A stretch of 35,857 nt of DNA, taken from IMG/VR virus record IMGVR_UViG_3300031612_000028, positions 1-35,857 of that record, one strand, 5' to 3'. The notes below the pieces were generated by a model. That model saw nothing but the letters and a program-made list of their open reading frames with translations. It ran no database searches and was not told the origin of the DNA. Origin of the DNA: a virus. Shown one piece after another: positions 8,473 to 33,497 of this stretch (its first letter is position 1; each line of letters begins with the position of its first letter). Position numbers and translations under genes: made by a program.

Positions 8473-8658
8473 ATGTCAAAGTTATCTGAACGAGGAAAAG
8501 CTGCGTGGGTCACTACTAAAAGCTTATTGTATACCGCTATCGTTCTTGCTTTCATCGTAGCTTGTTTAGTAGGCGGGTTAGCGCTGTTCCCTATATTATT
8601 AATACTTACACTAGGTTTAGCGATATTTGCTTACTTTAAAAATACTAATAAAACTTAA
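8473..8658 (+). CDS. Small membrane protein, 61 aa
   Basis: Two hydrophobic segments (about 17-37, LLYTAIVLAFIVACLVGGLAL, and 39-55) joined by a Phe-Pro turn, with a basic N-terminus and a short polar basic tail, indicate a hairpin inner-membrane protein with both ends inside. CGGAG lies about 10 bases before the ATG. This is the last plus-strand gene of the block and its TAA overlaps the stop of the convergent vRNAP gene. Candidates are a superinfection-exclusion or membrane-modifying protein. The function is not visible. Confidence 0.65.
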   Translation: MSKLSERGKAAWVTTKSLLYTAIVLAFIVACLVGGLALFPILLILTLGLAIFAYFKNTNKT

Positions 8659-11600
8659 CCAAATACATCTTTAAAATACTTAGCAATTAAGTCTGCACCT
8701 GTAACATTATTTGCTTCATCCCATAAGTCATCTAATTGCATTACATTAGGTTTAATATCTCCAGTAACCCAGGCACTATTTAAATTACCTAGTGTAGGTA
8801 TCCCGGTTGCGTACTGTATGGCTGCTGATATACCTACACCTGTAGGACTAGAATGCACTAGCTGCCTAGACGCTCTTTGATTACGTAGGAAATAGGATAA
8901 GAACGACGTGGCTCCTATTGCATCTAAAGCTTCTAGTGCTGGTGCCAATGTTTCATCAAAGAGCACAAGAGCATTAAGAGAATCGTGCATTGCTACTGGG
9001 AAAGGAATATTGCGTACTTGCGTAGCATGTTCAATCATTACATACCTACCTAAGAAGTCTGTCATCTGAACAACTTTCCGAGACAGTTGGTAAGGAGCGC
9101 TTGATTTACTCATAAACATTACAGCTGCCACATCACTAAAGACAGTAGGAACTTTATTTAGATGCTTAGCATACTTTTCTGCTTTAAGCCCTCTTCGTAG
9201 TCGATTAACATACCCATCAATTTGCGCATCATTAATATCTTCTACAATTAATGAGTTTACTCCGGCAAGACTCATACGATGAATTTTGTTATTCTTAATG
9301 CGTATTTCTAAGGCTCTAATTTGAATTGCTTCCGGACTAGTATCAGATAATTTCTTAATAGATTTTCGATGCTTAAGTTTATCACGCTCTTCTGTGTCAT
9401 CACGGTAACGTTTGTATTCTGTATACCCTTCTAAAATCTTATAGGCTGTATACGATAAAGGAATTTTCTTCATCGTTAACTGAGCTATATTTGAATGTAT
9501 GTTATTGATAATTACTTGAGGCATAGCAATAACAATCCTATCTTTACCATACCCTACAATTTCTCTAATCAAGTAATGTATAAATCCAGCAAATCGTTTA
9601 TATTCAATCATATTTTCTGATTGTAAAAACGGCAGTTGTGATGCATCTTTTACTTTATATCCAAATACCTTTTCAATTATATCTAGTCTAACCATAAACT
9701 TTCCATCTACTGCAAACTTATCCATATACTCTCTAACTTGCCGAGGAAGTTTACGATAGCGATCAATGTATGGAGACTTTGGATTTAGGAAATCTATAAA
9801 TAGCTCAGGTTGCGCTAATAATAAATCAGACTGCTCACGTACTAATATCTTTACAGTCTCTATATCACTAGTAATTGTATTAACTCGATCAATATACGAA
9901 GACTGCATATGAGCAAATACATTCTGAATTTCCATATCAGGTTTCAACAACTTCTCTTTAGTAGCAGTACTGATCATTACTCGGTAGTCTGTAATACGAC
10001 GTTGCCCGTCTCTAACTGGTCGTAAGTTAAAGTCACGGTTTCTACGTACTGACTTAGCTCTTAAAGATTCTTCTTTAATAAAGGTTTTTATAGCTTTATT
10101 TATATCTGTAAAAATCGGATGTCCTTCAGGATCTTGAAATTTGGGATCTTTACTAAATATCTCTCGTAAAGTAGTTCCCATATTTTGATGATTAGTCGTG
10201 GACATAATCCCCGAAGCATCAGCCACCTCATGCATATTTCGAGTAATATACAAAGTATCATGAGTTTGATTTACTCCTATAATCTTACCTAATGGCACTG
10301 ACTCACTAAACCCTGCTTTCTTCATATTCTTTTTATCAGCAACTGTACCTGTTTTCATACTGGTCAGATCATCTAATCTTTCAATAATCCAGCCCTTAAA
10401 TAATTGACTACGATTCTCACTAAATAAGTTTACAAGTGATTTATCCTTAAATGCTAAATGACTATCTAGCATATCAATGATTCCATTTTCATCAGGGTTT
10501 TGAGCAAATTCATTTATAGATAACTCACTAACAATTTCCCTTTCTCTACTATCTGTATATTGCAAAGCAGTCAACGTGGCATAGGCATCTAATAATTCAA
10601 TCTGTAGTTCCCGCTGAGTTTCAGTAGTTGCCTGCAGATGCTCGTGTGCTAGCGTATAACTATTCATGTGCCCATTACGTAAGTTCACATTTCTTGTAAC
10701 TATGAACTCACCTAATTCCTCCGCATGCATTAACGCAGGATGATTCGGAGCCAAGTTACCTAATAGTTTTCGAAGTTTTAGTTTTTCTACTGTAATCGAC
10801 CTAGAATTTCCAAATAATTCCGTGATCGCTTTAGTAGATAACCCAACACTAGGAGCACGGAGACTAGACACATCAGTACGCAATAATATATTAGTTAAGG
10901 CAACTCTAGTTTCTACAGGCATTGCATGAACTTGCTTAGCGTTAAGTGATTTCCAAATTCCATCGAACCACTTAATAGTAGACCTTTCTTGCTCTTGTCT
11001 CGCTTTAGATATATTAACTTTAGAATGAAGTAATTGTTCAATTAGAGCTGGAGAAAGTACCCCATTGCCAATTTCACTAGCAATACCTCGTAAAGTTTGA
11101 TTCAGTAATTGATGAACTTTTTGCTGCTCTTGCAATACCTGAGCATTCTCACTTAATATAAAACCCGGCATACCTACTAGACTTCTAGCAATCTTTCTAA
11201 CTCGGCTATCTGTAGGTGAAAACTTTAACTCTTTTCCTTGCTTAGCAATAAATTGTCTTAATTTTTGATCAGAATCATCTAAGAACTTATAAGTTTTATT
11301 ATTGAATTTTTGTAAGCCGCTCTCATGTTTACTTTGAATTGCAACGAGATGCTCTACTACTGTTAGCATCTCGTGAAATGAATCAGTCTTCCCACTTCGA
11401 TGTACGGATTTGTTTAAGATTCTTTCAAAAGCTTGAACGATTAGGTCCAGAACTTTCATTAATTCTCCCATAAGACCGGGATTTCGTACACGGCGCCTAG
11501 TTGTAATATTTGAAAGATAACTAGTTAATGCTCTATTCGTCACCGCAAAAGCTAAGAACTCATCAAGGCGATGTTCTTCGTTATCGTTATTATTGAAGAT

Positions 11601-14600
11601 ATAAAGATATTGAGCCTTTGCTGCTGCAATATCCGCCGCCGATGGATTAGCAATATCCCCTAAAAAGATTCTGTACCCGCCATTACTAGCTATGTCTGCT
11701 TTAACCTGTTGAAATAATCTCTCAACTTTTTTACGCAGCAATGGTGTCTGAGCTAACGCTTTAGATACCATAGCATGCACCATCTCGTGCACATATACTT
11801 CTTGCGGAGACATGCCATTAGCAGAAACAGGTGCAAATCTGCTTACAGATATTCGCATATCCTGTCGTAAAGCTTCGTAATTACCATGTGTAATACTATC
11901 AATTTGCTCAGTACTTAAATGTATATCACCAGCTGCTTTCAATCCTTTAGATAATTCTTTTAGTACTTGAGCTAATATATTAGAATGGGCCGTTTCTGAT
12001 TGAGTATCTGCATAGTAATTACTAGACACAGCTCTCAGCTTATCAAATAGAAGGTTTACTGTACTTGGTGTAATGTCCCCAATCAATCCTGTTACTGGTT
12101 CCGGGTTTTCTCTAGGTATATCAGATAACGATCCAAACGAGTCTTTAATCTTTTTCTTAAGTTCTGTATCAATATTAGGATCTGTGTCAACTACGTTAGT
12201 ATCGCTTTCATCTAAAGCAACTTTAACGGATTCCTCTACCAGATGTTTTTGTTCTTCTACGAAAGTAGTAGAACTTTGCTCAGGCTGTGGTGGGATAAAT
12301 AGCTGTTGACTCTGTAACTTGAGTCCTTCAGTAGAGCCAACAGTATATATTTCATCTCTAGCTTTTTGTACTTCTATATTAACTTCTCTTAAGTCATCTA
12401 CAACATTCGTAATACTTTCTTTCAACGCTTCCTTCGTAATCCGTTTATTACTAAAACCATTTTCCTTTAACCAGCTATTAGCTTCTTCTAATATTTCTGG
12501 ACTACTATCCCCAATCACCTTATCCAGTCGAGCTAAAGTACTTCCAATAACGCTATGTTGTTTATTGAGTCTTAGATGCTCTATTCCATAAAATCGAGAC
12601 GCCTCAACTAATTGTTCCGGACTGGCCATAAAGGCATCATGTAACATGAGCATTAATGGGTCATTCTGAAGAGTCATAGTAAGTGCTGCCGAATCCATAT
12701 TAATGATCTGACGAATCAATGCACTAACACCAGGTAGTGTAAACTCATTCTGAGTACCTGTACTTTCAGCAGTGCCCTGTTTACCGTTACTCTTTTTATA
12801 AGTAAACTGGGATGTTTCTAATGCGTTATTTCCATCCTTTCGATTCTTACGTTTAGAGAGATCAGTAAAGGTTAAACTATCTGATAGTGGGCCACTAGAC
12901 TGTGGAAGCAAATCTCGTAATCCACTTGCGGGATCATTAACTAAATCATCGATTTCTCGTTTAGTTAGTCCTGTCCTAACTCCATTGTAAGTAGCTAATT
13001 TGGCATTGTATGCCCTCTTAAAATTCACTTCAAAAATAGCATGCAATACTTCAACACCTTTGATGACACTTTGTCTAGCAGCATTAGTACCACCTAGCAT
13101 GCCGTTCAAACCAAAATCAAACCTAGGTTTAACTACTCCAGCTATACTCTGCTTTAAGACAGCATCATTAAAATGAAAAGTCTGAGATTGCCCACCAGGC
13201 TTATTAGCTAGTTTTGCTTTAGTAAATAGTGTTAGCAGCTGTGCTCGTGTCCCTGTCTGTGAACTAAACCCACCAAGAAGATCTAAGTTATCTAAGAAAG
13301 GCACTAGCACTTCCTTTTTATACTTAAGCTTCCCTGCAGATCCTTCAGCGCTATTATAGGTATGTTGCATTGCACTTAACTGCGAGTACAGGTCAGCAAT
13401 GATCTCTTTAGCTACTCCTTCAGAAATGCTTTTAGGTTGCCCTCCGTATAGAAAGATCAAGAACGGGTACTTAACAAGATCACGTAAGTTCCCATCTTTC
13501 AAATCTGTAAATAGCTCCATCAAAGCATTATTCTTTTTCTCGTATATCTTTTCAGACTTAGTTAAAGGACCCTCAATATTAATACTATCCGGGTCATGAA
13601 CTACTGATGAGTCTGCGGCGTAAGCACTATTATATTTAGCTGAAGAGAATTTCTTAATTAAAGTTACAAGATCTTCATATACTCCAGGCTTCGTAGGATC
13701 ATGTTTGGTGTCTTCGCCATAATAGGTGCCCCCTTGTCCAAGGACTTTTTTAATATTATTAAATATAGGAAACTGAAGAACATTAATGGCAGCGCCATTA
13801 GAGATACCGTCAATCTCAAGAATTGCATCTGAAGTAAATGACATATTGGCATTGTCCTTGACAGGCATGTATTTTGACAATGCTGTTAATGCATTTAACA
13901 TAGACATGTTACCGCCAAACGTTGCCTTGATAAGCGGAAGTAGTGTAGCTAGCTCTGCAACGCGGCCTTCTTCCTTTATATTAATTATGGCATTCACTGC
14001 GGCTATCACATTTGGATCAGCAATAATCCTATTAAATTCCGTAACTGCTGCTTCAGACCTATTTTTATCTATAGAGAACCCCATATTGGCAGCTACAGAT
14101 AATTGAAATAAGAATATGTTATCAGCTGTGTATTTCTTACTAGCAAAACTACGTAATAGGAATCTACTTACTTTACTATTCTGTGGATTAATTTTCCCCT
14201 GCATCATAATTCGATGCTGAACTTGCAACTTATATCTAAAGAAGAACCTAGTAAGCTTCTTATCCGCTAAAGCCTCCATAATATTTTTAAGTGCATTAGT
14301 CTTATCACTATTAGAAGCGGTCAATCTTGCATGCTCTACTTCATGATCTTCTACAGTTGTAGGGATAACTTCCATAATGCCATTAAGAGTATCTTGATGA
14401 TCTGTATATAGCGCACTAACAGTATCCAATGTCTCAGCAGCAGTCCATATAACCGCTTGCAATGACTTCAGAACTGTTCTTACTTTTTCAGGAACATTAC
14501 CGAATGAGTTATTAATAAACTTAACAACAGTAGGGCTCTTCTCTTGTAATGGGTACTTAGAATCTGTATCTAAATCAGCGCCAATAACTGTAGTTAAGTC

Positions 14601-17600
14601 AGCAATGGCAGCATTGCCTTCTAAACTAATCTTACTATAGTCACTCATCTTGATATGTTTATACTTACGTCCATGAGTAAACGTACGAGTATCGCTATCT
14701 TTATCAACAAACTTCCAAATGTGAGGTGCTTGTATTTGAAAGAATGCCGTAGGATCGTTAGGAATTGCATTAGTTTGCCCTGCTTGCTCAGATGCTGATA
14801 TGTCACCAGTACCTATCTGTAAAGCTCCCAGTCCAAATGCTAATTTCAAATTATCAAAATAAGCTTCTGTATTTACGGCCTTTTTTCCCTCTACTAATTC
14901 ATTAATACTAGCTTCAAGTGGAATCTTTTTAGCAGACATTTTCAATATATTTGCTATATCAATGCCTATTCGTTGAACAACGTCTTGGTAACTATGGCCA
15001 AGTGGGGCCACTCTCTTAGCTCCTAAGAGGTTGTTTCCCATAAGTTGTATTTCTTCATCTGGGGATAAGGTACCATTGCCACCGTACATGAACATCTCTC
15101 GAGACATCTTGCTAGGAAATACTACATTATCTGGAGTCTGATGAACCCAATTCAAAGTACCAATCATCATTCCAAATATGACTTGAGCAGGTAAAACACC
15201 ATCTCGATGCAAAATCGATAAAGTCTCTCCTACAGCAAAGTTACCTTTCTTAGTGTCATTGCCATCAATAGATATCTTTTGATATCTCTTATTATAAGTT
15301 TCAAAGTATGCAGCTAAAATTACAGCTGATTCTTTTTTGGTACCTAGATCAATTAAAGCTTGAACTAAGTTACCGGGCAAAAATGCTGCATCTGGTAATG
15401 CCTGAATACCCTGAGCTGCTTTTATCTCAACTAGATCAGAAAAGGACTTACCAATTACATTTAATTGAAATTCTCTATTGCTATTCTTAACTTGCTCTAA
15501 AGTCTTTCCATCTGCAATAGCTTTAGCAGTAGCCCATATCTCAAAAGCAGCTTCCGTAATCACAGTAGGGAATTTAACTAATGCTTGATCGATAAAACTA
15601 ATAATACCTGTAGAGTTGATATTGGATTTTACTCTGTCACCTACTGGAGTACGTACAGAACTAGAAGCTGCCAAATCCCCCTCAAGCCGAGCTTTCTGTT
15701 CAGCAGATGTTTCACTACCAGGTTCTTCAAAACCTTCACCTGCATCTATTTCTTCAGAAAGCTGGGTGATGCCATCCGATTGGGTGGGTTCAATTGGGTT
15801 CGTAGGAACTTGGGTAGTTGAGGTTTGGGTTTGGCTGGTGGAGTCTCGTCCAGTAGTCCCTCCTTCTGTAGAAACCCCAGTAGTACTCGGAGTAGTTTGA
15901 GTCCCTGATCTAACGTTCGTAGTCTGCTCTTTAGGTGCTGAATCTGTGGCTGGAGACGATCCTTCTGCACTTGCGTTAGATTGAACATTAGGCTCCTTAT
16001 TAGTATTAAAGGCTGTCAATGCTTGTTGAGCTACGTTAAGCGCTTTAGACGCTGCATTCGCTGACGCTACTGCAGCTGAGAGAGTTTTCTGTATGTCAGT
16101 ATTAGGACTAGGTTGTACTGATCTAGAAGCAAGTAGCTTCTCTAAAACCGCTATTGCAGCCTTCTCATCTGTGCCTCCCTCTTCTGCAAAATCTTCTGTT
16201 ATCCCAAAATCTTCTTCACCCCGTTGCTGTGCTTCTTCCGATTCTTGTGCTTCTATTGCTTGCCTTGCTACATCCTGTTCTACAGTCAAAAGTAACTCTT
16301 GTAGAACCGTGTTAGCAAACGCAGGATCATCTATTAACCGTTGTAAATCATTCTCGAAAGGGGCATCCCCATCACGTGTAGTTAATGAATCCGCTCCGGA
16401 ATTAAAAAGAGCATTTTCTTCGGAATCATCAAACTCAAGTTTAGGAGTATACTTAGAAGATTGACTAAGTTCAGCTATCTTAGTTTTAATTCTTTTTAGT
16501 TCCGCTTTTGCTTTAGTTAGCAACCCCTTCTTGTTATCTACATCCTTGGTTAATTTGGTCTGCTCAGCGGTATCTACTTTTTTAGGAACAGGAGTAGATT
16601 CTACAGTTTTCTCTGGTGCAGTATCAATGTCATCCAGAAGATCAAGTTTTCTTGCTTTAAGAAGTGCCAATTCAACTACATCATCAGTATTTGCATCTGT
16701 ATCTGAAACAATTTCCTCAGTAGATATACTTGTCTCCTGTGCAGGCGCAGACGTAGTCGAAGCCGGAACAGGGACAGGAGCATTAGTTTCTAATGTAGCT
16801 TCAGATATACCTTCACTAGTAAGTGGATCTGTTTTTAATTTAATATTACTAGAACTAAACTCATCTAGAGACTCTGTAATTGCAGCATTTTCTAATGTAA
16901 TTTTAGAAGAGTTCTCAGCAAATTGACTATCTTTATATCCTAGAACGACAGTCAATAACTCTTTACTATAATCTACTTCTCTTGACAATGTAGCGATTAG
17001 TGCAGCAGAATTTGATGGGTCAATAGCGTTAATAAAATCGCCATTACTACGTAATTTTATATAGGCAGCCTCATCCATATAGGTTGGTTCAGAATACCTC
17101 ATTACGCGTCCAACACTACCAGTAACCGCGCTACCTTTTACAACGATAACTTGTCCTTTTTTAGAAGGCATATTCAGTGCAGATTTAAATTGAATAAGTT
17201 TCTTTTCAAGGTTAGCAGCATGCACTTCCATAGCGTCTTCAAGAACTTTAACTTGCGGGTCAGCTATACTAGCTTCACTTTCTTCTGTAATTACTTTTAA
17301 GATTGCATCAGCATACGTCTTGAGTCCTGTCCACCTACTAGACATAGTACCCACAGTGACATCAGTGTGCACTTCCCCTAACTCTTTGACCTGATTTGAT
17401 TCCTCTTGACTTAGCAGTTCTTCAGTTTCTTTTACTTTAATTTGTGCTTCAATAAGATCTGTATCTTCTGGAGACACCTCTTTAAGCTTTTCTAGTTCTT
17501 CAGGATTCTGTTCCATAAAACTACGCATATTATCTACTTTAGGCTTCTCTTGAGTTTTTTCACCTTCAGCCTTTCTGAATACGCGCAATGCTTTATCTAA

Positions 17601-19544
17601 TATATCCGTCTGAGGTCCTGTTAATACGCGGTCAATTAATTTACGTAAAGTAGTTCTTTGATCTTCCCGATCAGCAGGGTCCATACCAGCTAAAGTATCT
17701 TTTAATTCTTTATCTGAAATTTCCTGATTAGCTTTACTTTCCTGAGGAGTAGGGGGATTATCTAACTTATCTAATTGAGCTACAACATCAGCGTGTGCTC
17801 TGCGTAACATATCTTTATGAGCAGTAGATTCTTCCGGAGTTAATTCTGTGGCTAACTCTGCAGAGATTAGATCCCGCTCTGCTATATTCTGTAAGGTCTT
17901 TGGATTACCTGCTTCTTCATTAGAATCTTCAGCGGCTTTGATTTCAGCGTTTAATTCATCTAACCTGCTAAGGCCTGCGTTGCCAGCAGGAGTATCTCCT
18001 ACGGTAATTGGGTCATTAGACTCTATCTTCAGCCTTACTTCTTCTAAGAAGTCTTCAGCATCAGCTCTATTCTCCTCAGCTTCTGTTGGTGCAGTAGGTG
18101 ATACAATATTTTTAGCTATTTTAGCTGCAACGTTTGTGGCGTATAGACCTGTTAAACCACCTGGCATACCAATCGCTTCATTGAATGCACTACGTTTCAC
18201 ACTACTAATATCTGGTACTGCTCCACTCTGCCCATATTGATCAGTAATCTCTGTAAGACCGCCAGATACTGCCTCTGAAAGAAAAGCACTTATAGGTTTA
18301 ACTGCAGCTAAATTAAGTATTTTAGCTGGTGTATTAGCTGCGACAGCTGTGGCTACTTTTTTCATCCAAGTAGCTCGACCAGGAAGCATGTCAGCAAGAA
18401 CGCCAGCACTTCCTTTTTCAACAATCATACCCACTGTAGAAGCTATTTTAATTCTATTAACTACCTCAGCCGAGGGATCCTTCTTCTCTCGAAGAGTGTA
18501 TTCTTTAATAGCTTGTTGAGATTTACCTTTAGCTAAAGTCAGCAACGTTCCTAGTTGAGTGACCGGGCCTCCATACGTTAAAGCAACCATAAATAATGTA
18601 CTATCAAAGCCTCTAGCTACATGCGTACCCAAATCATTGGTTACCGCATATATCATAGATTCAAGATCTCCACTATTTTTAGCTACTGTTTTCATAGCTG
18701 CATCAGAAGCAGCTTGCTCTTTTCTATTTACTGGAGTAATCTTTTTAACCCAGTTAATTGCACCACTAATTACTTCAGAATCCTTTACATTTTCTGCAGC
18801 TTCACTATCTAATCTAGTGATAGTCTTGTATTTATCAGTTTTCTGGAATTCTATATCTGTAGGGGTTAGGTCTTTATCTGCTTTAATAATACGGCGATAA
18901 TTCTCGATATCTGTAGGGGAGATATCACTACCTTCTGCAGCAGGTTGACTAAAGCTAGTTAGCTTTCCTTCTTGGTTATCCTCATTAAAACTAATTACTT
19001 TCTCATTTAGAGTAGTTTTTCCTGTAAAGGCTTGAGCGCCCATTTCAAGGACATCTAGTCCTCCATGGAATAGCTGTCCTACTTTATTAATTACTTCATT
19101 ATCAGAAGCTCCTGCAGCGTCTGCAGCTGCATCCGTATCAGTATACGCTTTGAAGCGATTAGCAGTTACTTCATCTAAACCAACATGATTTTTCCCAAAT
19201 CTATCGGTTACTGAAAAAGTACCATTTTCATGTATCGTAGCTCCCTCCGCATTAGTACCTACTACAGGAGATGTACCTAATAAAACACTGGGATTGCTTT
19301 TACTAAAAGACTCAGCACTTAATGCCTCTTCTCCTAAATTAGAAAAAGCACTTGCACCAACCGCATCGTTACCTAATGCATTAAACTTAATACTATCATT
19401 AGCTATGCTGTTCCTAAATGCGCTACTACGAATACTATTTGCTTGGCGAAAAGCGGCTTTAGTTTCAGCAATCTGTGCAGCTTTTACTAATTTAGCGGAG
19501 TCAACTTCTGCTCTTACAGCTAATAGTTTTTCAGTTAAATTCAC
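8655..19544 (-). CDS. Giant virion RNA polymerase (N4 gp50-like vRNAP) with C-terminal zinc metallopeptidase-like domain
   Basis: Predicted single-subunit RNA polymerase packaged in the virion and injected with the DNA to transcribe early genes. Its 3,629 aa is close to the roughly 3,500 aa of the N4 enzyme. Catalytic motifs: T/DxxGR-like QVQHRIMMQG (Arg1778); motif A EIDGISNG (Asp1912); motif B RDLVKYPFLIFLYGG (Arg2021, Lys2025, Tyr2033, as T7 Arg627/Lys631/Tyr639); motif C LMLHDAF (Asp2303). The spacings match those I recall for N4 mini-vRNAP. The first ~480 residues include hydrophobic helices, then a charged, Ser/Thr-rich linker runs to about 1300. After the polymerase, HEMVH at 2586-2590 plus Glu2662 in DEFLAF suggest a zincin domain; the last 900 residues are helical and unassigned. 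Translation begins at GTG with GAGGAA nine bases upstream, five bases after the preceding stop. Confidence 0.93.
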   Translation of the reverse strand: MNLTEKLLAVRAEVDSAKLVKAAQIAETKAAFRQANSIRSSAFRNSIANDSIKFNALGNDAVGASAFSNLGEEALSAESFSKSNPSVLLGTSPVVGTNAEGATIHENGTFSVTDRFGKNHVGLDEVTANRFKAYTDTDAAADAAGASDNEVINKVGQLFHGGLDVLEMGAQAFTGKTTLNEKVISFNEDNQEGKLTSFSQPAAEGSDISPTDIENYRRIIKADKDLTPTDIEFQKTDKYKTITRLDSEAAENVKDSEVISGAINWVKKITPVNRKEQAASDAAMKTVAKNSGDLESMIYAVTNDLGTHVARGFDSTLFMVALTYGGPVTQLGTLLTLAKGKSQQAIKEYTLREKKDPSAEVVNRIKIASTVGMIVEKGSAGVLADMLPGRATWMKKVATAVAANTPAKILNLAAVKPISAFLSEAVSGGLTEITDQYGQSGAVPDISSVKRSAFNEAIGMPGGLTGLYATNVAAKIAKNIVSPTAPTEAEENRADAEDFLEEVRLKIESNDPITVGDTPAGNAGLSRLDELNAEIKAAEDSNEEAGNPKTLQNIAERDLISAELATELTPEESTAHKDMLRRAHADVVAQLDKLDNPPTPQESKANQEISDKELKDTLAGMDPADREDQRTTLRKLIDRVLTGPQTDILDKALRVFRKAEGEKTQEKPKVDNMRSFMEQNPEELEKLKEVSPEDTDLIEAQIKVKETEELLSQEESNQVKELGEVHTDVTVGTMSSRWTGLKTYADAILKVITEESEASIADPQVKVLEDAMEVHAANLEKKLIQFKSALNMPSKKGQVIVVKGSAVTGSVGRVMRYSEPTYMDEAAYIKLRSNGDFINAIDPSNSAALIATLSREVDYSKELLTVVLGYKDSQFAENSSKITLENAAITESLDEFSSSNIKLKTDPLTSEGISEATLETNAPVPVPASTTSAPAQETSISTEEIVSDTDANTDDVVELALLKARKLDLLDDIDTAPEKTVESTPVPKKVDTAEQTKLTKDVDNKKGLLTKAKAELKRIKTKIAELSQSSKYTPKLEFDDSEENALFNSGADSLTTRDGDAPFENDLQRLIDDPAFANTVLQELLLTVEQDVARQAIEAQESEEAQQRGEEDFGITEDFAEEGGTDEKAAIAVLEKLLASRSVQPSPNTDIQKTLSAAVASANAASKALNVAQQALTAFNTNKEPNVQSNASAEGSSPATDSAPKEQTTNVRSGTQTTPSTTGVSTEGGTTGRDSTSQTQTSTTQVPTNPIEPTQSDGITQLSEEIDAGEGFEEPGSETSAEQKARLEGDLAASSSVRTPVGDRVKSNINSTGIISFIDQALVKFPTVITEAAFEIWATAKAIADGKTLEQVKNSNREFQLNVIGKSFSDLVEIKAAQGIQALPDAAFLPGNLVQALIDLGTKKESAVILAAYFETYNKRYQKISIDGNDTKKGNFAVGETLSILHRDGVLPAQVIFGMMIGTLNWVHQTPDNVVFPSKMSREMFMYGGNGTLSPDEEIQLMGNNLLGAKRVAPLGHSYQDVVQRIGIDIANILKMSAKKIPLEASINELVEGKKAVNTEAYFDNLKLAFGLGALQIGTGDISASEQAGQTNAIPNDPTAFFQIQAPHIWKFVDKDSDTRTFTHGRKYKHIKMSDYSKISLEGNAAIADLTTVIGADLDTDSKYPLQEKSPTVVKFINNSFGNVPEKVRTVLKSLQAVIWTAAETLDTVSALYTDHQDTLNGIMEVIPTTVEDHEVEHARLTASNSDKTNALKNIMEALADKKLTRFFFRYKLQVQHRIMMQGKINPQNSKVSRFLLRSFASKKYTADNIFLFQLSVAANMGFSIDKNRSEAAVTEFNRIIADPNVIAAVNAIINIKEEGRVAELATLLPLIKATFGGNMSMLNALTALSKYMPVKDNANMSFTSDAILEIDGISNGAAINVLQFPIFNNIKKVLGQGGTYYGEDTKHDPTKPGVYEDLVTLIKKFSSAKYNSAYAADSSVVHDPDSINIEGPLTKSEKIYEKKNNALMELFTDLKDGNLRDLVKYPFLIFLYGGQPKSISEGVAKEIIADLYSQLSAMQHTYNSAEGSAGKLKYKKEVLVPFLDNLDLLGGFSSQTGTRAQLLTLFTKAKLANKPGGQSQTFHFNDAVLKQSIAGVVKPRFDFGLNGMLGGTNAARQSVIKGVEVLHAIFEVNFKRAYNAKLATYNGVRTGLTKREIDDLVNDPASGLRDLLPQSSGPLSDSLTFTDLSKRKNRKDGNNALETSQFTYKKSNGKQGTAESTGTQNEFTLPGVSALIRQIINMDSAALTMTLQNDPLMLMLHDAFMASPEQLVEASRFYGIEHLRLNKQHSVIGSTLARLDKVIGDSSPEILEEANSWLKENGFSNKRITKEALKESITNVVDDLREVNIEVQKARDEIYTVGSTEGLKLQSQQLFIPPQPEQSSTTFVEEQKHLVEESVKVALDESDTNVVDTDPNIDTELKKKIKDSFGSLSDIPRENPEPVTGLIGDITPSTVNLLFDKLRAVSSNYYADTQSETAHSNILAQVLKELSKGLKAAGDIHLSTEQIDSITHGNYEALRQDMRISVSRFAPVSANGMSPQEVYVHEMVHAMVSKALAQTPLLRKKVERLFQQVKADIASNGGYRIFLGDIANPSAADIAAAKAQYLYIFNNNDNEEHRLDEFLAFAVTNRALTSYLSNITTRRRVRNPGLMGELMKVLDLIVQAFERILNKSVHRSGKTDSFHEMLTVVEHLVAIQSKHESGLQKFNNKTYKFLDDSDQKLRQFIAKQGKELKFSPTDSRVRKIARSLVGMPGFILSENAQVLQEQQKVHQLLNQTLRGIASEIGNGVLSPALIEQLLHSKVNISKARQEQERSTIKWFDGIWKSLNAKQVHAMPVETRVALTNILLRTDVSSLRAPSVGLSTKAITELFGNSRSITVEKLKLRKLLGNLAPNHPALMHAEELGEFIVTRNVNLRNGHMNSYTLAHEHLQATTETQRELQIELLDAYATLTALQYTDSREREIVSELSINEFAQNPDENGIIDMLDSHLAFKDKSLVNLFSENRSQLFKGWIIERLDDLTSMKTGTVADKKNMKKAGFSESVPLGKIIGVNQTHDTLYITRNMHEVADASGIMSTTNHQNMGTTLREIFSKDPKFQDPEGHPIFTDINKAIKTFIKEESLRAKSVRRNRDFNLRPVRDGQRRITDYRVMISTATKEKLLKPDMEIQNVFAHMQSSYIDRVNTITSDIETVKILVREQSDLLLAQPELFIDFLNPKSPYIDRYRKLPRQVREYMDKFAVDGKFMVRLDIIEKVFGYKVKDASQLPFLQSENMIEYKRFAGFIHYLIREIVGYGKDRIVIAMPQVIINNIHSNIAQLTMKKIPLSYTAYKILEGYTEYKRYRDDTEERDKLKHRKSIKKLSDTSPEAIQIRALEIRIKNNKIHRMSLAGVNSLIVEDINDAQIDGYVNRLRRGLKAEKYAKHLNKVPTVFSDVAAVMFMSKSSAPYQLSRKVVQMTDFLGRYVMIEHATQVRNIPFPVAMHDSLNALVLFDETLAPALEALDAIGATSFLSYFLRNQRASRQLVHSSPTGVGISAAIQYATGIPTLGNLNSAWVTGDIKPNVMQLDDLWDEANNVTGADLIAKYFKDVFG

Positions 19545-19549
19545 TAGTA

Positions 19550-21688
19550 TTAGTTCCTCGGAGAGGTGTTCAATACAGGATCGCTATCTAATATATTGAA
19601 TAAGTTTGACCAATTTGTACTTTCATTCACAGGAATACCTCTCCTGTTAGCCGCCTCTATAAGAGTTTGAGGGGGCGTATTACCTGATGGCGACGGTGTT
19701 GCTTGTATATTATCACTAACTTCCTTTGGATTCATAGATTGCTTTTTGTCCTTCTTTCGTACTTCTTTCTCTTCTTTCGTCAATAATGAAAAAGGTAAAC
19801 TAGGAGCTATAGCCGCCATTAACTGATCATTGTCTAGCCGACTTAAACTACCATCTTTAGCTCCAAGAATCGCAGTATACATTGTATACGCTTTACCTGT
19901 TTGAGGAGTTTTAATATCTGCTTTGGTTCTATACCAAGGAAAGTCAACACTACTTCCATTAAATGTTTTAAATACTGCTCTAGCTAATTCAGCTAGTTTT
20001 GTTTCGTCACTACCTACTCTCCCGCCGTATAGTTTATTTACTCTATCTAATGTAGCAGTAACATCGTCAGTAAGGTCCTGATTAGAAATCTGATCAGTTC
20101 CAAATGCATTTGGGTTATCTTTTTGTAACTTCTGAACGATTGCTGCATACGGACCTTGACTTGCAACGGAAGTAGCAAAATCGCTTATTTCTGTCTCAAG
20201 TTTCACTCCTACCTTAGAACGATGTTTGCTAACAGCATTAACGGCTTCTTTTCTTAAAAATGATGCATCTCGTGCTGTACTGTAATTATTAGTACTACTA
20301 ATGATTTCCTGTACTTTAGAGTTTACAGTTTCAGAAGAGGCATGAGGATTGCCTTTAGAAATAGCTCTAGTCAAAGAAGATTCATACCGTTTAAACTCTG
20401 AAAAGGATGGAGAGTTGCCTGCATTAATAGTTAATGGATTTAAACGTAAGGTAGTAAACGGAACTGCTGTCTTACTATAGGTGGTGCTATCCATATCAGC
20501 ATCTGTAAGATTCCGATTCCATATTGGTTGAAACAGGGCTTTTGCACTTTTTAAGGTGACACCAGGTCTTCTTAAATAATTCTTAAATTCTATATCTGTA
20601 GCAGCAGTACGATCACCACCTAGTAATGCTAAGTTAGTTATACTGGTATTTAGTGCTATTTCATTCTCGCTATCTACTATTTCTTTCCGTTTGGTGTTTT
20701 CTAATGTTTCCCTAGTTAACTTAGTTAATGTAGTCTCTGATCCTCGTTTAAAACTTCTATCTAGCCCTTCATCCGAAATAGCTTTAGTAACTCTAGCTGA
20801 TATACCCGCTTCAGAAGCTAAAGGAAATTGCTCTGTTAGCATAGTTGTTAAAGTATTTACTAATTGGGCACGCCCTTTTATTGAGAAATCTGTTTTCCCA
20901 TTAACTTGTGCTAGCACTGTGTTATCTATTACAACTGGAGTCTGATTCAAAGACTTGTCATACTGCTCCTGCACTACAGAACTAGTCCTCCCTTGGGCCC
21001 TCGCTGTATTAAGAATATCTTCCATAATTGCGCCCTGATTTTCTGGCAGAGCACTTTGATACCGCGCAACATCAACTAATGCTAACTGTTTATTAGTTTC
21101 AATAGTTTGTTTATTATCAAGTTCTATCTTTTTTAAATCATTTGAAGTTTCCGCCAGCGTTTGAGCTGCGGTAGCAGCTTTAATCTTTGAGGCAGACTCT
21201 AATAGATTTTGACCAGCGGCATTACTATCACTTAAAGCTTTTTGTACTTTTCTAGTTTCTTCAGCAGTAGCCCTCTGTTCATTCACCTCTCTTTGCCCAA
21301 TGCCATATTCAAATGTATTTGCTAAACGTGCTTCAGCATCTTGTTTTATATCAAATAACTCGTTTGCACGAGTATTAGCATCTACATTAAAATCCTGATT
21401 CTGAGCAGCAGTAATAGCTTCACTAGCCCTACCTACATTTAAGAAATCTCTATCAGCAAGCTGTAGCATTTCATTACGTTGCTGATCATTATCTGCAGCA
21501 TTCAATGTAGCAATAAACGCATCCGTCTCAGTTTGACTTCGATTATCAGCGTATGCTTGAACACTATCCCCAGCATCTTGAAACCCTTGTTTAATGCCAT
21601 CAGTAGCATTAACTAATAAAGCATTAGCCGCTGCATTGCTTGGAGCAACAATATTCTGCCATGTAATAGGTGTACGGGCTCTAGCCAT
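19550..21688 (-). CDS. Putative internal virion / ejection protein, 712 aa
   Basis: A long, predominantly helical, Ala/Asn/Gln/Thr-rich protein without a signal peptide or enzymatic motif that I can see. Heptad-like stretches, for example residues 120-210, suggest coiled coils. The C-terminal ~60 residues are Pro/Ser-rich and basic (KEEKEVRKKDKKQSMNPKE). It lies immediately upstream of the vRNAP gene in the transcript; N4 places gp51, a virion protein, in the same spot. By analogy it may accompany the polymerase inside the capsid or form part of the ejection channel. AGGAG lies about 6 bases before the ATG. The role is inferred from position and composition. Confidence 0.65.
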   Translation of the reverse strand: MARARTPITWQNIVAPSNAAANALLVNATDGIKQGFQDAGDSVQAYADNRSQTETDAFIATLNAADNDQQRNEMLQLADRDFLNVGRASEAITAAQNQDFNVDANTRANELFDIKQDAEARLANTFEYGIGQREVNEQRATAEETRKVQKALSDSNAAGQNLLESASKIKAATAAQTLAETSNDLKKIELDNKQTIETNKQLALVDVARYQSALPENQGAIMEDILNTARAQGRTSSVVQEQYDKSLNQTPVVIDNTVLAQVNGKTDFSIKGRAQLVNTLTTMLTEQFPLASEAGISARVTKAISDEGLDRSFKRGSETTLTKLTRETLENTKRKEIVDSENEIALNTSITNLALLGGDRTAATDIEFKNYLRRPGVTLKSAKALFQPIWNRNLTDADMDSTTYSKTAVPFTTLRLNPLTINAGNSPSFSEFKRYESSLTRAISKGNPHASSETVNSKVQEIISSTNNYSTARDASFLRKEAVNAVSKHRSKVGVKLETEISDFATSVASQGPYAAIVQKLQKDNPNAFGTDQISNQDLTDDVTATLDRVNKLYGGRVGSDETKLAELARAVFKTFNGSSVDFPWYRTKADIKTPQTGKAYTMYTAILGAKDGSLSRLDNDQLMAAIAPSLPFSLLTKEEKEVRKKDKKQSMNPKEVSDNIQATPSPSGNTPPQTLIEAANRRGIPVNESTNWSNLFNILDSDPVLNTSPRN

Positions 21689-29154: not shown

Positions 29155-31239
29155 TTACTGTTTATTTAACGCATCAAATGCTTTATTGTCAAGATTTGAT
29201 AGCCTATCATGCTCTTTACCTTCCATGTTCTGTTCATGTTTCTGATCTGCTGCATCCTGCTCTCGAGCGTTAGAAACCCCTGATTCTTTCTCAAGAAAAT
29301 CAAGATCACTAATATCAGACCCACTATTAAGCCCTCTTGCTTTAGCTTGTTCTGTTTGTGTTTTAGCAGTTTTGAGTCCGATGTCCACTTCATTCTCAGC
29401 GCCTTTAGCATTCTCGTTACGGATTTTAGCTTTCATCATTTCCATTTCAAGTTGATGCATTGCCTCAGCCATTGGATCAGGTTGAGGTTGATACTCTTCA
29501 ATACGCTTAGCTAGATCAGGCATCTTACGCAATTTAGCTATATCAGACAAAACCATATAACTCATTTCCGGCGGCATTGTATTACCCATAGTTTGTAACA
29601 TAAATGCCAGCTCGCTAGCTTTTTGTTCATCAGCCTCAGCTGTTGAGATATTAAGCTTGATATCATATTGTCCTCCTAGATCATTACGATCAATAGAGAT
29701 AAATTCTTCATTAGTAACACGAATGATTTCTTCATCTTCTAAGAACTCTGCATTCATAGAAATGATTTTACGTCCTATTTGAGTTAATCCATTAGAAAAC
29801 CTACGCAGGATACCCAATTCACGCTTAGAAGTAGCATCTAATGCCGATCTAATCCCAGTAGCCGTAGCTCCTAAAGCTTGACCAGAGATGCCATTAGTAA
29901 ATGCTTTAACACCTGTAAGAGCTTCTGCATCATTATTCTGCATCTGCAGTACTTCAATAGCTGAACGTGGAATCTCAGGATATACTTCCATATGAAATGC
30001 TTGCTTTGGATCTACGTTAGCATTAAACTTATAATCTTCCCCGCGTTCATACTTACGAGCATTCGTTACATCAAGAGCATCTTTACGAATACCTTGCTGA
30101 CCGTTAGCACTACGACCAATTACATCAATGATGCCTCTGGTAACAGCGCCTACGATCTTCTGGTTATCTTCAATAAGAGCTGCATCTGGCTCTCCATATA
30201 AATTCTTACGACGAGGCAAATACTGAACTAATACAAATGGCAATTTCTTGTCTGGGTAAGGATTCTCTTCCATCCTAATAAATGTACTTCCTATCCAAGT
30301 AGCTACAAAGGGCTTAAGTTCTTCCGTTCCATCAATGTCCCAGAATCCCCAATACTCTCGAGCAATAACTTTCTTACGAGCTTTATCTTTAAACGTAAAG
30401 TTACTATCATCTGTATTGATCTTATGATCAGGTTCAGACAATACAGACGCACTCTCGAAGTTAATATTATCAAGATTAGTGTATCGACCATCTTTCTTAA
30501 GCTCTGATAGAGAAGTTTCAAAACTATAAATAACAAAGTTAGCCTTATCAATATCACCTTCACAAGTAGGGTCTATAACTAAATTGTTATAATCACATAC
30601 GGTTAATACAGGTTGATTCTTAACTGTGATCTTCTTTTTTACTTTCTTCTCACCAACTTTAACTTCTTCTAGAATAGGTTGTCCAGATTGTGGATCTATA
30701 GCTGGTTGTCCTGTTTGAGGGTCTGGTACCATCTGTTGTTCCATAACAGGCTGGTATACTGTACGCACGGCCTCTTCAAATTCCCAACCAACACGAACAA
30801 CTACAGTACCTTCATCTACATTCGTACGTATATAGTTATCTATAAAGCTTACTTTATCCATTCGACAGTTAAACTGATAATTTAATACCATCCCATTTTG
30901 TTGGGCGGACTTCTTATCTTCAAAAGTCTTAGGAGCTGTATTAAACAAATCATCTGTAGATAAGAAAGGTTCTGATAAAGCAGCGTATCGCCATTCAGCT
31001 TGTTTACGAGCTAACTTAGGTACTAGCTTAGAACGCCCGCGCTTTACACTAATAGTTTGTTCAGCATTAAGGACTCTTAACCACCCATCTATCTCAAGGG
31101 TATGGACTCCATGCGCTACCTGAGCAGACTCAAGGTCTTGCTTAAGATCAGCAAGACTAGGGGGATTTTCCCAATCAACTAAAGTAGAGACGTCAGTTTC
31201 AGTTTTATCTAAGTCATCCTGATCTATAAGATCGCTCAT
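29155..31239 (-). CDS. Portal protein, N4 gp59-like
   Basis: Forms the dodecameric ring through which DNA is packaged and ejected. The 694 aa fits the large portals of N4 and P22 types. Seen in sequence: an acidic N-terminus, a core with IREYWGFWDIDG-like strands, the segment PFVLVQYLPRRKNLYGEPDA near 330-350, then IEDNQKIVGAVTRGIIDVIG and a MQNNDAEALTGVKAFTNGIS stretch typical of the P22/N4 portal stem and wing. A Gln/Lys/Glu-rich C-terminal coiled barrel-like region follows. A short duplication (DPQTGQPAIDPQSGQP, residues 173-188) lies in an early loop. The start has only GTGAG within the preceding gene's end, so translation may be coupled. The portal assignment rests on length, context and these segments. 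Confidence 0.82.
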   Translation of the reverse strand: MSDLIDQDDLDKTETDVSTLVDWENPPSLADLKQDLESAQVAHGVHTLEIDGWLRVLNAEQTISVKRGRSKLVPKLARKQAEWRYAALSEPFLSTDDLFNTAPKTFEDKKSAQQNGMVLNYQFNCRMDKVSFIDNYIRTNVDEGTVVVRVGWEFEEAVRTVYQPVMEQQMVPDPQTGQPAIDPQSGQPILEEVKVGEKKVKKKITVKNQPVLTVCDYNNLVIDPTCEGDIDKANFVIYSFETSLSELKKDGRYTNLDNINFESASVLSEPDHKINTDDSNFTFKDKARKKVIAREYWGFWDIDGTEELKPFVATWIGSTFIRMEENPYPDKKLPFVLVQYLPRRKNLYGEPDAALIEDNQKIVGAVTRGIIDVIGRSANGQQGIRKDALDVTNARKYERGEDYKFNANVDPKQAFHMEVYPEIPRSAIEVLQMQNNDAEALTGVKAFTNGISGQALGATATGIRSALDATSKRELGILRRFSNGLTQIGRKIISMNAEFLEDEEIIRVTNEEFISIDRNDLGGQYDIKLNISTAEADEQKASELAFMLQTMGNTMPPEMSYMVLSDIAKLRKMPDLAKRIEEYQPQPDPMAEAMHQLEMEMMKAKIRNENAKGAENEVDIGLKTAKTQTEQAKARGLNSGSDISDLDFLEKESGVSNAREQDAADQKHEQNMEGKEHDRLSNLDNKAFDALNKQ

Positions 31240-31245
31240 ATATTA

Positions 31246-31596
31246 TCACTCACTTTTAATGGGGACCTTTCTTTCCACATGTTTATCATAGTCACTGTAT
31301 TTCTGTTTAAGATAATTATCAACTTTATATATCTTAAGCCCATCTATTGTATCATAGTAATCTAGATAATTAGTAAACATAGAATTCTCAGCTCCTACTA
31401 GAATAGAGCAATAGATATCATCTGCTTGTACTACTTCGGATACAAAGTACTTCCATATCTTAGCAAAGTTCATTTTATCTATCAAATCGGGGCCTATAAG
31501 AGTTCCAGCTATCATGTAACCTTTCATCTTCTTTGTATGCCTATAGAATAAAGCAGCTTGCCCTTCTTGTATTAAACTAACATGTGCAAATACCAT
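31246..31596 (-). CDS. Hypothetical protein, 116 aa, coupled to the ketoacyl synthase
   Basis: Unrecognised compact alpha/beta protein. It begins with a hydrophobic strand-rich segment, has IAGTLIGPDLIDKMNF and ILVGAENSMF in the middle, and ends in a Lys-rich tail. There is no signal peptide. Its start overlaps the stop of the beta-ketoacyl synthase gene (TAATG, with GGAG 8 bases upstream), and the portal gene begins 6 bases after its stop. Co-translation with the synthase suggests a shared pathway, perhaps as an acyl-transferring or acyl-accepting partner, but equally it could be a head-assembly protein that happens to follow. Nothing in its sequence decides this. Confidence 0.65.
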   Translation of the reverse strand: MVFAHVSLIQEGQAALFYRHTKKMKGYMIAGTLIGPDLIDKMNFAKIWKYFVSEVVQADDIYCSILVGAENSMFTNYLDYYDTIDGLKIYKVDNYLKQKYSDYDKHVERKVPIKSE

Positions 31597-32609
31597 TAGA
31601 CTATCTCCACTACTGCAGATGAAAACACATTACCCATACCAGCGCCTAAACTAAGAAACCTACCAGATTCTTCTTGAATAGCTAAGGCTGTCTCTACAGC
31701 AGTAGAGGTACCCATGGTATGGCCAATACGTAATTTATAGTTAACTGTTCTAATATCCCCAAAGGTCTCTTTAAGTATAACTTCTTCAATCTGGTTATCT
31801 AACGAAAAGGTACTGTGGGTTTTAACAAAATCAATACCGTCTGTAAACACTCGATTAATAACATTTCTATACCCAGTGCCTTCAGGTGATATACCTAGAG
31901 GAGTGTTATGTACTTCCGCTCCAACATACATGTCTTCTATCTTAGCTAACGGCTTATGTTCATTACTCCAAGCTGAATAACCCGTCTCAAAGACTGATAT
32001 ATTACAAGCTTGTCCGCATCTAAACTTAACAATATCAGGGTTATTTTCTTCATCAACTAGTTTCGATAAGCCGTATTCCCCAAATATTGATAAGTAATCT
32101 TCTGAGGTTCCATCATCTACAGCGATAACTACTACTGTATCTAAGGCACCGGCTTTCATCATATTACGTGCAGTATACCAGGCTGAGTGGCCGCTTATAC
32201 AACTAGTCGCATCTGTAGAGATATATTCAAACTTACCAATCTTATTAGCTATAGAGCCCGCATATATCTGATTCTCGGCCATTACAGGTATTCTATATGT
32301 AGGGTATTGGTCCGACCATTTAACAGTAGTCAAATGGCCCATCCAATGGGTACCCCCTGCAGCTAATATCAGCCCTGTCTTACAGAATTCCGATTCAGTG
32401 CATTCACGTAAGAACTCAAATGTACCCTGAGTAGCTCCATGTTGACCTTTTAATACATAGTTCACTAACTCTTCACAGGCTGTTCTAATACCTTGTTTAA
32501 CTACCATACCTCCACCATTATTAACTAGATGGGCATACTGAGGGTAGGTTACATAGTCTAATAAAGTTGTAGCCTCAGAGTATACAGAGTTGGTATGGGT
32601 TAAAAGCAT
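31596..32609 (-). CDS. Beta-ketoacyl-ACP synthase-like (thiolase-fold) enzyme
   Basis: Condensing enzyme that would extend an ACP-bound acyl chain with malonyl-ACP. The 337-aa sequence keeps the active site of FabF/FabB-type synthases in order: Cys137 in TSCISGHSAW (nucleophile), His265 in KTHSTFSLDNQIE (matching the family NAHGTSTPLND motif), Lys292 and His297 in KLRIGHTMGTSTAVE. Spacings 128, 27 and 5 compare with about 140, 32 and 5 in E. coli FabF from memory. A Gly-rich LSLGAGMGNVFSS end also fits. It is shorter than FabF (about 413 aa), mostly by loss in the N-terminal half. The gene overlaps the ACP-like gene by 10 bases. A non-condensing thiolase-like relative remains possible, but the intact triad suggests activity. 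Confidence 0.82.
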   Translation of the reverse strand: MLLTHTNSVYSEATTLLDYVTYPQYAHLVNNGGGMVVKQGIRTACEELVNYVLKGQHGATQGTFEFLRECTESEFCKTGLILAAGGTHWMGHLTTVKWSDQYPTYRIPVMAENQIYAGSIANKIGKFEYISTDATSCISGHSAWYTARNMMKAGALDTVVVIAVDDGTSEDYLSIFGEYGLSKLVDEENNPDIVKFRCGQACNISVFETGYSAWSNEHKPLAKIEDMYVGAEVHNTPLGISPEGTGYRNVINRVFTDGIDFVKTHSTFSLDNQIEEVILKETFGDIRTVNYKLRIGHTMGTSTAVETALAIQEESGRFLSLGAGMGNVFSSAVVEIV

Positions 32610-32947
32610 CGTTTGCTGTATTCTACAGCCTCTTTAAAGGTATAGGTCTGAGTCGCTTCTTTCATTACAAATGCCTTCAGATCTGTACCGGTATTCTTAC
32701 CAGACATCATAAAATCATTAACTTTATCTTCTGGAATACCAAACAGTTGGGATATCCATATAAAGAAAACGACAGTACTTAAACTATCTAACTTCTCGAT
32801 AGTAATCTTCTCATCCATAGATTCAATAGGAACATACTCCTCACCCATAGGCGCATCGAGCTTGAATAGATGATTGATAATGATCAAGAACTGTTCATCC
32901 GTAAAGTCGAATGACGTAGTCTTAAAGTCAGATTCTTTGAATGTCAT
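32600..32947 (-). CDS. Acyl carrier protein-like protein
   Basis: Small (115 aa) protein with the acyl carrier architecture: helix I (EQFLIIINHLFKL, about 18-30), a loop, then LDSLSTVVFFIWISQLFGI at 53-71, where Ser55 in Asp-Ser-Leu is the expected 4'-phosphopantetheine attachment site at the start of helix II. PEDKVNDFM and TDLKAFVMKE match helices III and IV. About 15-20 extra residues occur at each end compared with AcpP (78 aa). AAGGA lies 7 bases before the ATG. It is the first gene of the minus-strand block and overlaps the synthase gene, so the pair is likely co-expressed. No phosphopantetheinyl transferase is visible, so a host enzyme would have to load it. Confidence 0.75.
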   Translation of the reverse strand: MTFKESDFKTTSFDFTDEQFLIIINHLFKLDAPMGEEYVPIESMDEKITIEKLDSLSTVVFFIWISQLFGIPEDKVNDFMMSGKNTGTDLKAFVMKEATQTYTFKEAVEYSKRCF

Positions 32948-33056: not shown

Positions 33057-33497
33057 ATGAGCAGTAAAGAAACTAATCCTAAAGATGCCATTGCTATTAA
33101 GAAACCTAGATTCCATTCAGGTATGCCGGCAAACGTAACTCGTGAAGTGAGTGTTGGCCTTATGGAAGGTAGTATGAAGTATGGACGACATAACTACCGA
33201 GTAGCCGGTGTTCGAGCTAGTGTCTACATAGATGCTACTATGGGCCACTTACTAGACTATTGGGAAGGCCAGGATATCGATCCAGATAGTAACCTTCATC
33301 ATATTACTAAAGCTATTGCATCATTATACGTATTGCGTGATGCACAGATGCGTGATATGTGTGAAGATGATCGTCCGCCTAAATCCGATGTTGAAGGGGA
33401 TAAGGAACGATTACAGGTAATAGTAGATCAACTGTTTAAGAAGTATCCTAATCCAGCCCCAGCTTATGTAGATGGGGATACAAATCTACGAAAGTAG
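33057..33497 (+). CDS. dATP/dGTP diphosphohydrolase-like protein (DUF5664 / MazZ-type N-terminal family)
   Basis: Likely a nucleotide pyrophosphohydrolase acting on purine dNTPs. The 146-aa protein matches, from memory, the phage family PF18909 (dGTP_diPhyd_N), which includes the MazZ enzyme of Z-genome phages. Signature residues: NPKDAI at the N-terminus, LMEGSMKYGRHNY (Glu37, Lys41-Tyr-Gly43), ATMGHLLDYWEGQDID with His64 and a Trp-Glu-Gly-x-Asp run, then HHITKAIASL (His81/82) and a C-terminal acidic stretch. AAGGA lies 7 bases before the ATG. No PurZ or DatZ accompanies it in the window, so it may serve general pool control or host DNA recycling rather than 2-aminoadenine synthesis. Confidence 0.7.
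   Translation: MSSKETNPKDAIAIKKPRFHSGMPANVTREVSVGLMEGSMKYGRHNYRVAGVRASVYIDATMGHLLDYWEGQDIDPDSNLHHITKAIASLYVLRDAQMRDMCEDDRPPKSDVEGDKERLQVIVDQLFKKYPNPAPAYVDGDTNLRK

Follow-up and report, generated by a model that had tools for sequence, protein, structure and literature searches.

Acyl carrier protein (ACP) genes encoded by phages are already known (PMC11705849, PMC5463345, PMC10152775). The Schitoviridae member Alteromonas phage R22Y encodes a phage ACP as auxiliary gene gp30 (PMC11705849), Erythrobacter phage vB_EliS-R6L carries an ACP gene (PMC5463345) and prophages of Rhodobacteraceae contain acpP-fabF-fabG clusters, with fabF beside the ACP gene in three (PMC8224337). The locus described here shares with R22Y a phage-encoded ACP, but the portal-containing first 50 kb of R22Y matches neither our ACP nor its two partner genes. 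The prophage clusters copy the host order fabG-acpP-fabF, including fabG, whereas fabG is missing from the phage module studied here. In the open-licence literature we found no paper describing an ACP and a β-ketoacyl synthase (KS) as a conserved module of the virion gene block; such a module thus appears to be undescribed.

The window analyzed, a stretch of 35,857 nucleotides (IMGVR_UViG_3300031612_000028), derives from a marine virus of bacteria and carries the module directly ahead of the particle genes. On the minus strand the order is ACP-like gene, KS-like gene, a third gene of 116 aa and the portal gene. The features are:

32600..32947, minus strand: ACP-like gene, 115 aa, opening the leftward virion block (phrog_28189, E = 6e-14)
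32783..32785, minus strand: codon of ACP Ser55, the presumed phosphopantetheine site (DSL), from sequence and alignment
31596..32609, minus strand: KS-like gene (KAS I/II type), 337 aa (phrog_35856, E = 3.7e-104), overlapping the ACP gene by 10 nt
32199..32201, minus strand: codon of KS Cys137, the nucleophile, invariant in 114/114
31815..31817, minus strand: codon of KS His265, the first catalytic His, invariant in 114/114
31734..31736, minus strand: codon of KS Lys292, invariant in 114/114
31719..31721, minus strand: codon of KS His297, the second catalytic His (K-x4-H), invariant in 114/114
31246..31596, minus strand: third gene, 116 aa, predicted minimal GNAT-like fold (phrog_28689), overlapping the KS stop by 1 nt (TAATG)
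29155..31239, minus strand: N4-like portal gene, directly following the module (PF23899, E = 5e-145; phrog_1216, E = 2e-233)
8655..19544, minus strand: virion RNA polymerase gene, 3629 aa (phrog_2206, E = 4.8e-162), marking N4-like identity

Judged by sequence, the giant virion RNA polymerase and the N4-type portal identify the window as a fragment of an N4-like phage (Schitoviridae), in agreement with the original prediction made from the DNA. The portal is ~52% identical to those of N4-like isolates and N4-type capsid genes are also present. The overlapping ACP-like and KS-like reading frames named in that prediction are where it placed them. It put the pair upstream of the portal, and the order is right, but the gene that adjoins the portal is not the KS gene; it is the overlapping third gene, which went unmentioned. 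Since the three reading frames overlap, their joint translation is probable. The suggestion that the pair opens the virion transcript comes from gene order only; a sigma-70 pattern scan found no promoter. Beside the ACP gene, a divergent gene (33057-33497) matches the N-terminal domain of dATP/dGTP diphosphohydrolase (PF18909, E = 5e-20); the tag of its family, PHROG 2252 ('endolysin; inhibits RNA polymerase'), looks like a mislabel. Immediately upstream of the virion RNA polymerase gene, a gene for a 712-aa protein (19550-21688) has no PHROG match and is a candidate virion protein specific to this phage group.

The ACP was identified by its motif, predicted fold, weak profile matches and constant place beside the KS. 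As had been predicted, Ser55 lies in Asp-Ser-Leu (LDSL); D54-S55 does not vary among 35 aligned relatives, and each of the 120 distinct ACPs uncut by a contig end has the serine. The AlphaFold2 model has helices at residues 17-30, 55-69, 73-81, 87-97 and 104-113, that is, the anticipated four-helix layout plus an extra C-terminal helix, and Ser55 is the first residue of helix II. Single-sequence Pfam and NCBIfam scans of the window ACP gave no usable match. Foldseek, which the original prediction had put forward as a check, did return ACPs as the best PDB matches of the model, but weakly (E of 0.28 and up). The best PDB match of the ACP profile is the peptidyl carrier protein 2my5 (E = 0.002) with the DSL aligned, and PF00550 (PP-binding) matches 6 of the 35 members weakly (best E = 0.0023). 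The protein thus has in common with type II ACPs (AcpP, PF00550) the DSL serine that begins helix II and the four-helix layout, and differs from them by N- and C-terminal additions and by similarity that is mostly below the Pfam level. By analogy, Ser55 would be phosphopantetheinylated.

The KS is more readily placed. A profile built from 37 relatives matches the structure of FabF (2rjt) with E = 4.2e-19 as well as 71 further PDB chains including 1ox0 and 5sxo, which bears out the original prediction in the comparison with known structures that it had called for. As a single sequence the window KS matches Pfam weakly (E = 0.11). Across the 37 relatives the Pfam KS domains PF00109 and PF02801 were detected in 31 (N-terminal) and 22 (C-terminal), with relatives reaching E = 1.4e-15 for the C-terminal domain and E = 9e-36 for NCBIfam fabF, for which the window KS itself has E = 1.4e-6. 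Against the TIGR03150 equivalog cut-off of 494 bits, the window KS scores 27 and that of locus L188 123; on sequence grounds the phage KS is therefore a relative of FabF, not an orthologous FabF.

Cys137, His265, Lys292 and His297, all correctly numbered in the original prediction, show no variation, nor does the K-x4-H spacing, among the 114 distinct full-length KS sequences of the two phage lineages described below, although no more than 18 of the 337 alignment columns are fixed. The dN/dS of the KS is about 0.06-0.10, equal to that of the portal, as expected from the claim that these are intact and not decaying genes. Because the tetrad is invariant and purifying selection acts on the gene, we regard the KS as an enzyme kept for catalysis, with decarboxylative condensation as its putative activity by analogy. 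Loss of the catalytic residues in most homologues, the outcome named beforehand as speaking against the prediction, did not occur for either protein. It is extremely improbable that we are dealing with chance resemblance or decaying genes: the poor single-sequence scores of the window KS and ACP would fit such a reading, but the KS profile match, the invariant active sites, the purifying selection and the recurrence in two lineages argue against it. Overall, we consider it almost certain that both proteins belong to their assigned families.

The usual C-terminal loop of FabF and FabB is GFGGTN. The phage KS has GAGMGN instead, is about 25-30% identical to the cellular proteins sampled and falls into a separate clade, in which 29 KS of N4-like phages and of phages unrelated to them group apart from 17 cellular FabF-like proteins with support 100/100 (the cellular set represents relatives of a single alphaproteobacterial genome, and a very long branch divides the two groups). 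Together with the sub-cut-off score, these features argue that it is not a recently captured FabF. It resembles FabF/FabB (KAS I/II) in the Cys-His-His plus Lys set, the K-x4-H spacing and a profile match across the catalytic half, and differs from them in length (335-380 aa compared with about 410 aa), in the loop, in scores far under the NCBIfam cut-offs and in forming its own clade.

Scans of IMG/VR yielded at least 93 stretches encoding the N4-like KS, with ACP, KS, third gene and portal as the usual order. Among roughly 50,700 phage records, the window KS and ACP match solely Caudoviricetes sp. ctpbd312 (MW202545); hence the module was found in no cultured isolate, in a record set from which close relatives of the window may be missing. 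Its KS is already annotated as a 3-oxoacyl-ACP synthase. MW202545 in turn led to 66 relatives in IMG/VR, which like the window carry an ACP gene followed by a KS gene of the same clade right ahead of virion genes. Unlike the window, these are short-tailed phages that are not N4-like, with a portal annotated as head-to-tail connecting protein and a different family of ~150 aa after the KS. Here the pair lies between a virion structural or tail gene and the ~150 aa gene, after which comes a run of virion-type genes; one of these encodes an SLT lysozyme domain. Intact active sites were seen throughout this second lineage too, so that more than 100 environmental phage sequences from two unrelated lineages carry an ACP-KS pair with intact active site. 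This recurrence suggests that phages employ the pair late in infection to build an acyl chain or to attach one.

The ~150 aa gene is conserved directly after the KS in the second-lineage loci examined (L142 9118-9552, L188 9119-9577 and relatives). It was considered as a member of the same family as the third gene and set aside, having no detectable homology to it and no PDB match; by eye, its strand-helix layout looks GNAT-like. Second-lineage KS matches in Listeria, Enterococcus and Staphylococcus 'phage' records were excluded, as these records are unannotated and may be contaminated with host fabF. One N4-like contig with the full module (L092, JAJFHN010000039.1) was assigned to a metagenome-assembled genome of Hyphomicrobiales, which hints weakly at an alphaproteobacterial host.

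The original prediction had remarked that neither a malonyl transferase nor a ketoreductase accompanies the pair, and the same is true of a larger genomic context. Seven related records of 54-75 kb yielded no malonyl transferase, short-chain ketoreductase or phosphopantetheinyl transferase (PF00698, PF13561, PF01648), in a search in which control genomes were positive. Host AcpS, FabD and probably FabG would therefore be needed. The missing companion genes argue against a self-contained pathway and fit a parasitic module.

A rival explanation is that ACP and KS are auxiliary metabolic genes that boost or redirect host fatty-acid synthesis for host membranes, for instance in chain length or unsaturation at low temperature. 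On this account the place in the virion operon would signify late expression only and the third gene would be unrelated. The enzymes are indeed FabF- and ACP-like, and ACP genes of marine phages and prophages have already been so interpreted (PMC11705849, PMC8224337); moreover, the KS can be missing. However, the KS is very divergent from the sampled cellular FabF and phage-specific, unlike recent host captures, boosting host synthesis needs no dedicated ACP, and placement at the head of the virion genes in two unrelated lineages is unexpected for a general metabolic gene. We thus hold this explanation to be possible but on balance unlikely.

The gene content upstream of the portal was compared across 75 distinct N4-type portal loci whose upstream sequence was long enough. 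ACP, KS and third gene occur together in 48, ACP and third gene without KS in 10, ACP and KS without third gene in 2 and the third gene alone in 3, while 12 have none of the three. The portal tree calls for 16 changes in the presence of the KS and the ACP tree for 3, and 11 of 13 KS-less ACPs have in common a related C-terminal tail, often NYxGNYFGG (L101, L105, L108, L109, L116, L126, L129, L132-L134 and L139, all upstream of the portal). From these two observations, ACP-KS and KS-less ACP appear to be interchangeable cassettes that move between closely related backbones, with third gene and portal constant. In KS-less records of 74 and 75.5 kb, which retain the ACP and the third gene, the KS was not found elsewhere, in a search that recovered its positive controls. 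The reading that fits best is an ACP which, charged by the host or extended by the KS, feeds acyl groups to something constant.

Conserved pairing in N4-like loci, proposed earlier as something to survey, was observed: where room existed, no KS was found without an ACP, in either lineage. On independent branches the association of KS with ACP is 6 vs 0 (p = 0.031) and that of ACP with the third gene 2-3 to 0, the latter being suggestive. The invariant KS active site and the pairing favor real acyl chemistry by ACP and KS, which we regard as likely, over a pure decoy. A decoy or regulator would have the phage ACP bind host ACP partners such as MukB, SpoT or acyltransferases, with the KS merely sequestering malonyl- or acyl-ACP. 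Although ACP has many host partners, with a link to MukBEF cited in PMC11705849, and some relatives drop the KS and keep the ACP, a decoy would need neither an invariant KS tetrad nor a KS that is always paired with ACP, and we find this explanation quite improbable. Among the purposes offered by the original prediction, an acyl group for a virion protein or membrane, a decoy ACP or a change of the envelope, those with real acyl chemistry are thus favored, and the pure decoy is disfavored.

The slot upstream of the N4-type portal looks, by eye, like a cargo site. Other loci have there an asparagine-synthase-like gene with two small genes (L253 1617-4887), a ParB-like gene (L235 2900-3358) or a small, possibly GNAT-like ORF (L265 1573-1827). 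As the pre-portal region of N4-like phages also holds such unrelated cargo genes, position alone is no proof of a virion role. A further variant was seen in L233 (3132-4902) and L240 (913-2704), in which the ACP gene is followed by a gap or, in L240, by a gene for a predicted membrane protein of 152 aa, and then by a divergent KS gene directly before the portal. A GNAT-like gene was not detectable in these two loci, and in their portal clade the module is wholly absent from 8 of 10 portals.

Sequence searches with the third gene against Pfam, NCBIfam, PDB and INPHARED were empty or at chance level, so the clues to its function are structural. AlphaFold2 modeled the protein with a pLDDT of 84 and a pTM of 0.76 and the strand order b-b-b-a-b-b-b. 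In Foldseek the top 50 PDB matches are nearly all GNAT proteins (NAGS, GCN5, AcrVA5) with E of 0.02-0.3 and TM of about 0.5, and annotated matches among the viral structures of BFVD are mostly GNAT or acetyltransferase. From these models we assign a GNAT-like fold with moderate confidence. The CoA-binding motif A ([QR]xxGx[GA]) is found in none of 36 third-gene proteins, which range from about 96 to 136 aa; they have no invariant His, and one Ser is present in 35 of 36.

The absent motif would fit a role of the third protein as partner of the phage ACP, because ApxIC and HlyC, GNAT-fold proteins that use acyl-ACP, are also described as without CoA-binding elements (PMC8339906). Like the RtxC/HlyC lysine acyltransferases treated there, the third protein combines a GNAT-like fold lacking the CoA motif with proximity to a source of acyl-ACP. 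Unlike them, it has no invariant catalytic His/Ser pair and is smaller, and no sequence similarity to them was found, so that the likeness concerns the way of working only. Membership in the HlyC family was rejected on account of the His and Ser pattern.

GNAT-fold synthases of small molecules that use acyl-ACP are known (LuxI- and FeeM-type). ACP, KS and the GNAT-like protein might likewise make an N-acyl compound, a signal or a membrane-active substance, instead of modifying a protein, and a GNAT-like fold without CoA motif adjoining an ACP would suit this. Yet with only about 96-136 aa the third protein is below the size of such synthases and has no family match, and a place among virion genes better suits a virion target. 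A small-molecule route is in our view improbable.

We tentatively prefer a late acyl module fed by the host. The host phosphopantetheinyl transferase would arm Ser55 of the ACP and host malonyl-/acyl-ACP enzymes would charge it. Following FabF/FabB enzymology, the KS would take an acyl chain onto Cys137 and condense it with malonyl on the phage ACP, the observed His265 and His297 presumably serving decarboxylation with support from Lys292. From the resulting acyl-ACP, or in KS-less relatives one charged by the host, the GNAT-like protein could then transfer the acyl group to an acceptor. The likeliest candidate is a virion or ejected protein from the same operon, modified by a reaction comparable to HlyC's transfer from acyl-ACP to a protein lysine. 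Loading and extension of a chain on the phage ACP form the well-supported half, though as putative activities deduced from FabF and ACP enzymology; transfer and target are less well supported. With the GNAT-like third gene, the idea of transfer to a target becomes more concrete, and we see an even chance that this gene encodes the transferase, as suggested by its modeled fold. The whole scheme, with a virion protein as the probable recipient, falls a little short of that, and a virion protein as the acceptor, taken by itself, slightly further. A virion role is considered mainly because the pair heads the virion genes in two unrelated lineages, which is circumstantial.

Several observations count against the transfer step. 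A few relatives have the GNAT-like gene but neither ACP nor KS, and the L233 and L240 types show the reverse; the GNAT assignment comes solely from similar folds (best E 0.02, TM about 0.5); and the second lineage has a different gene of ~150 aa after the KS, with no detectable homology to the GNAT-like gene. A bolder version of the scheme is doubtful. It holds that the ACP, with or without its dedicated KS, works with a minimal GNAT-like transferase dependent on acyl-ACP, and that a virion or ejected protein thereby receives a fatty-acyl or β-ketoacyl group, which confers membrane affinity for genome delivery. This would be a previously undescribed phage counterpart of HlyC-type acylation that arose a single time and passed between two or more unrelated lineages of short-tailed phages.

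Lipid genes of phages are commonly taken as metabolic passengers. A KS with an invariant active site and its own ACP, lying beside the virion genes of two unrelated lineages, speaks rather for a dedicated acyl product that serves in making or delivering the particle. Functions can also be suggested for phrog_35856 and phrog_28189, two PHROG families so far listed as unknown. If a virion protein is acylated, lipid modification would join the few known modifications of virion proteins and would offer a concrete starting point for the question of how ejected proteins get into membranes.
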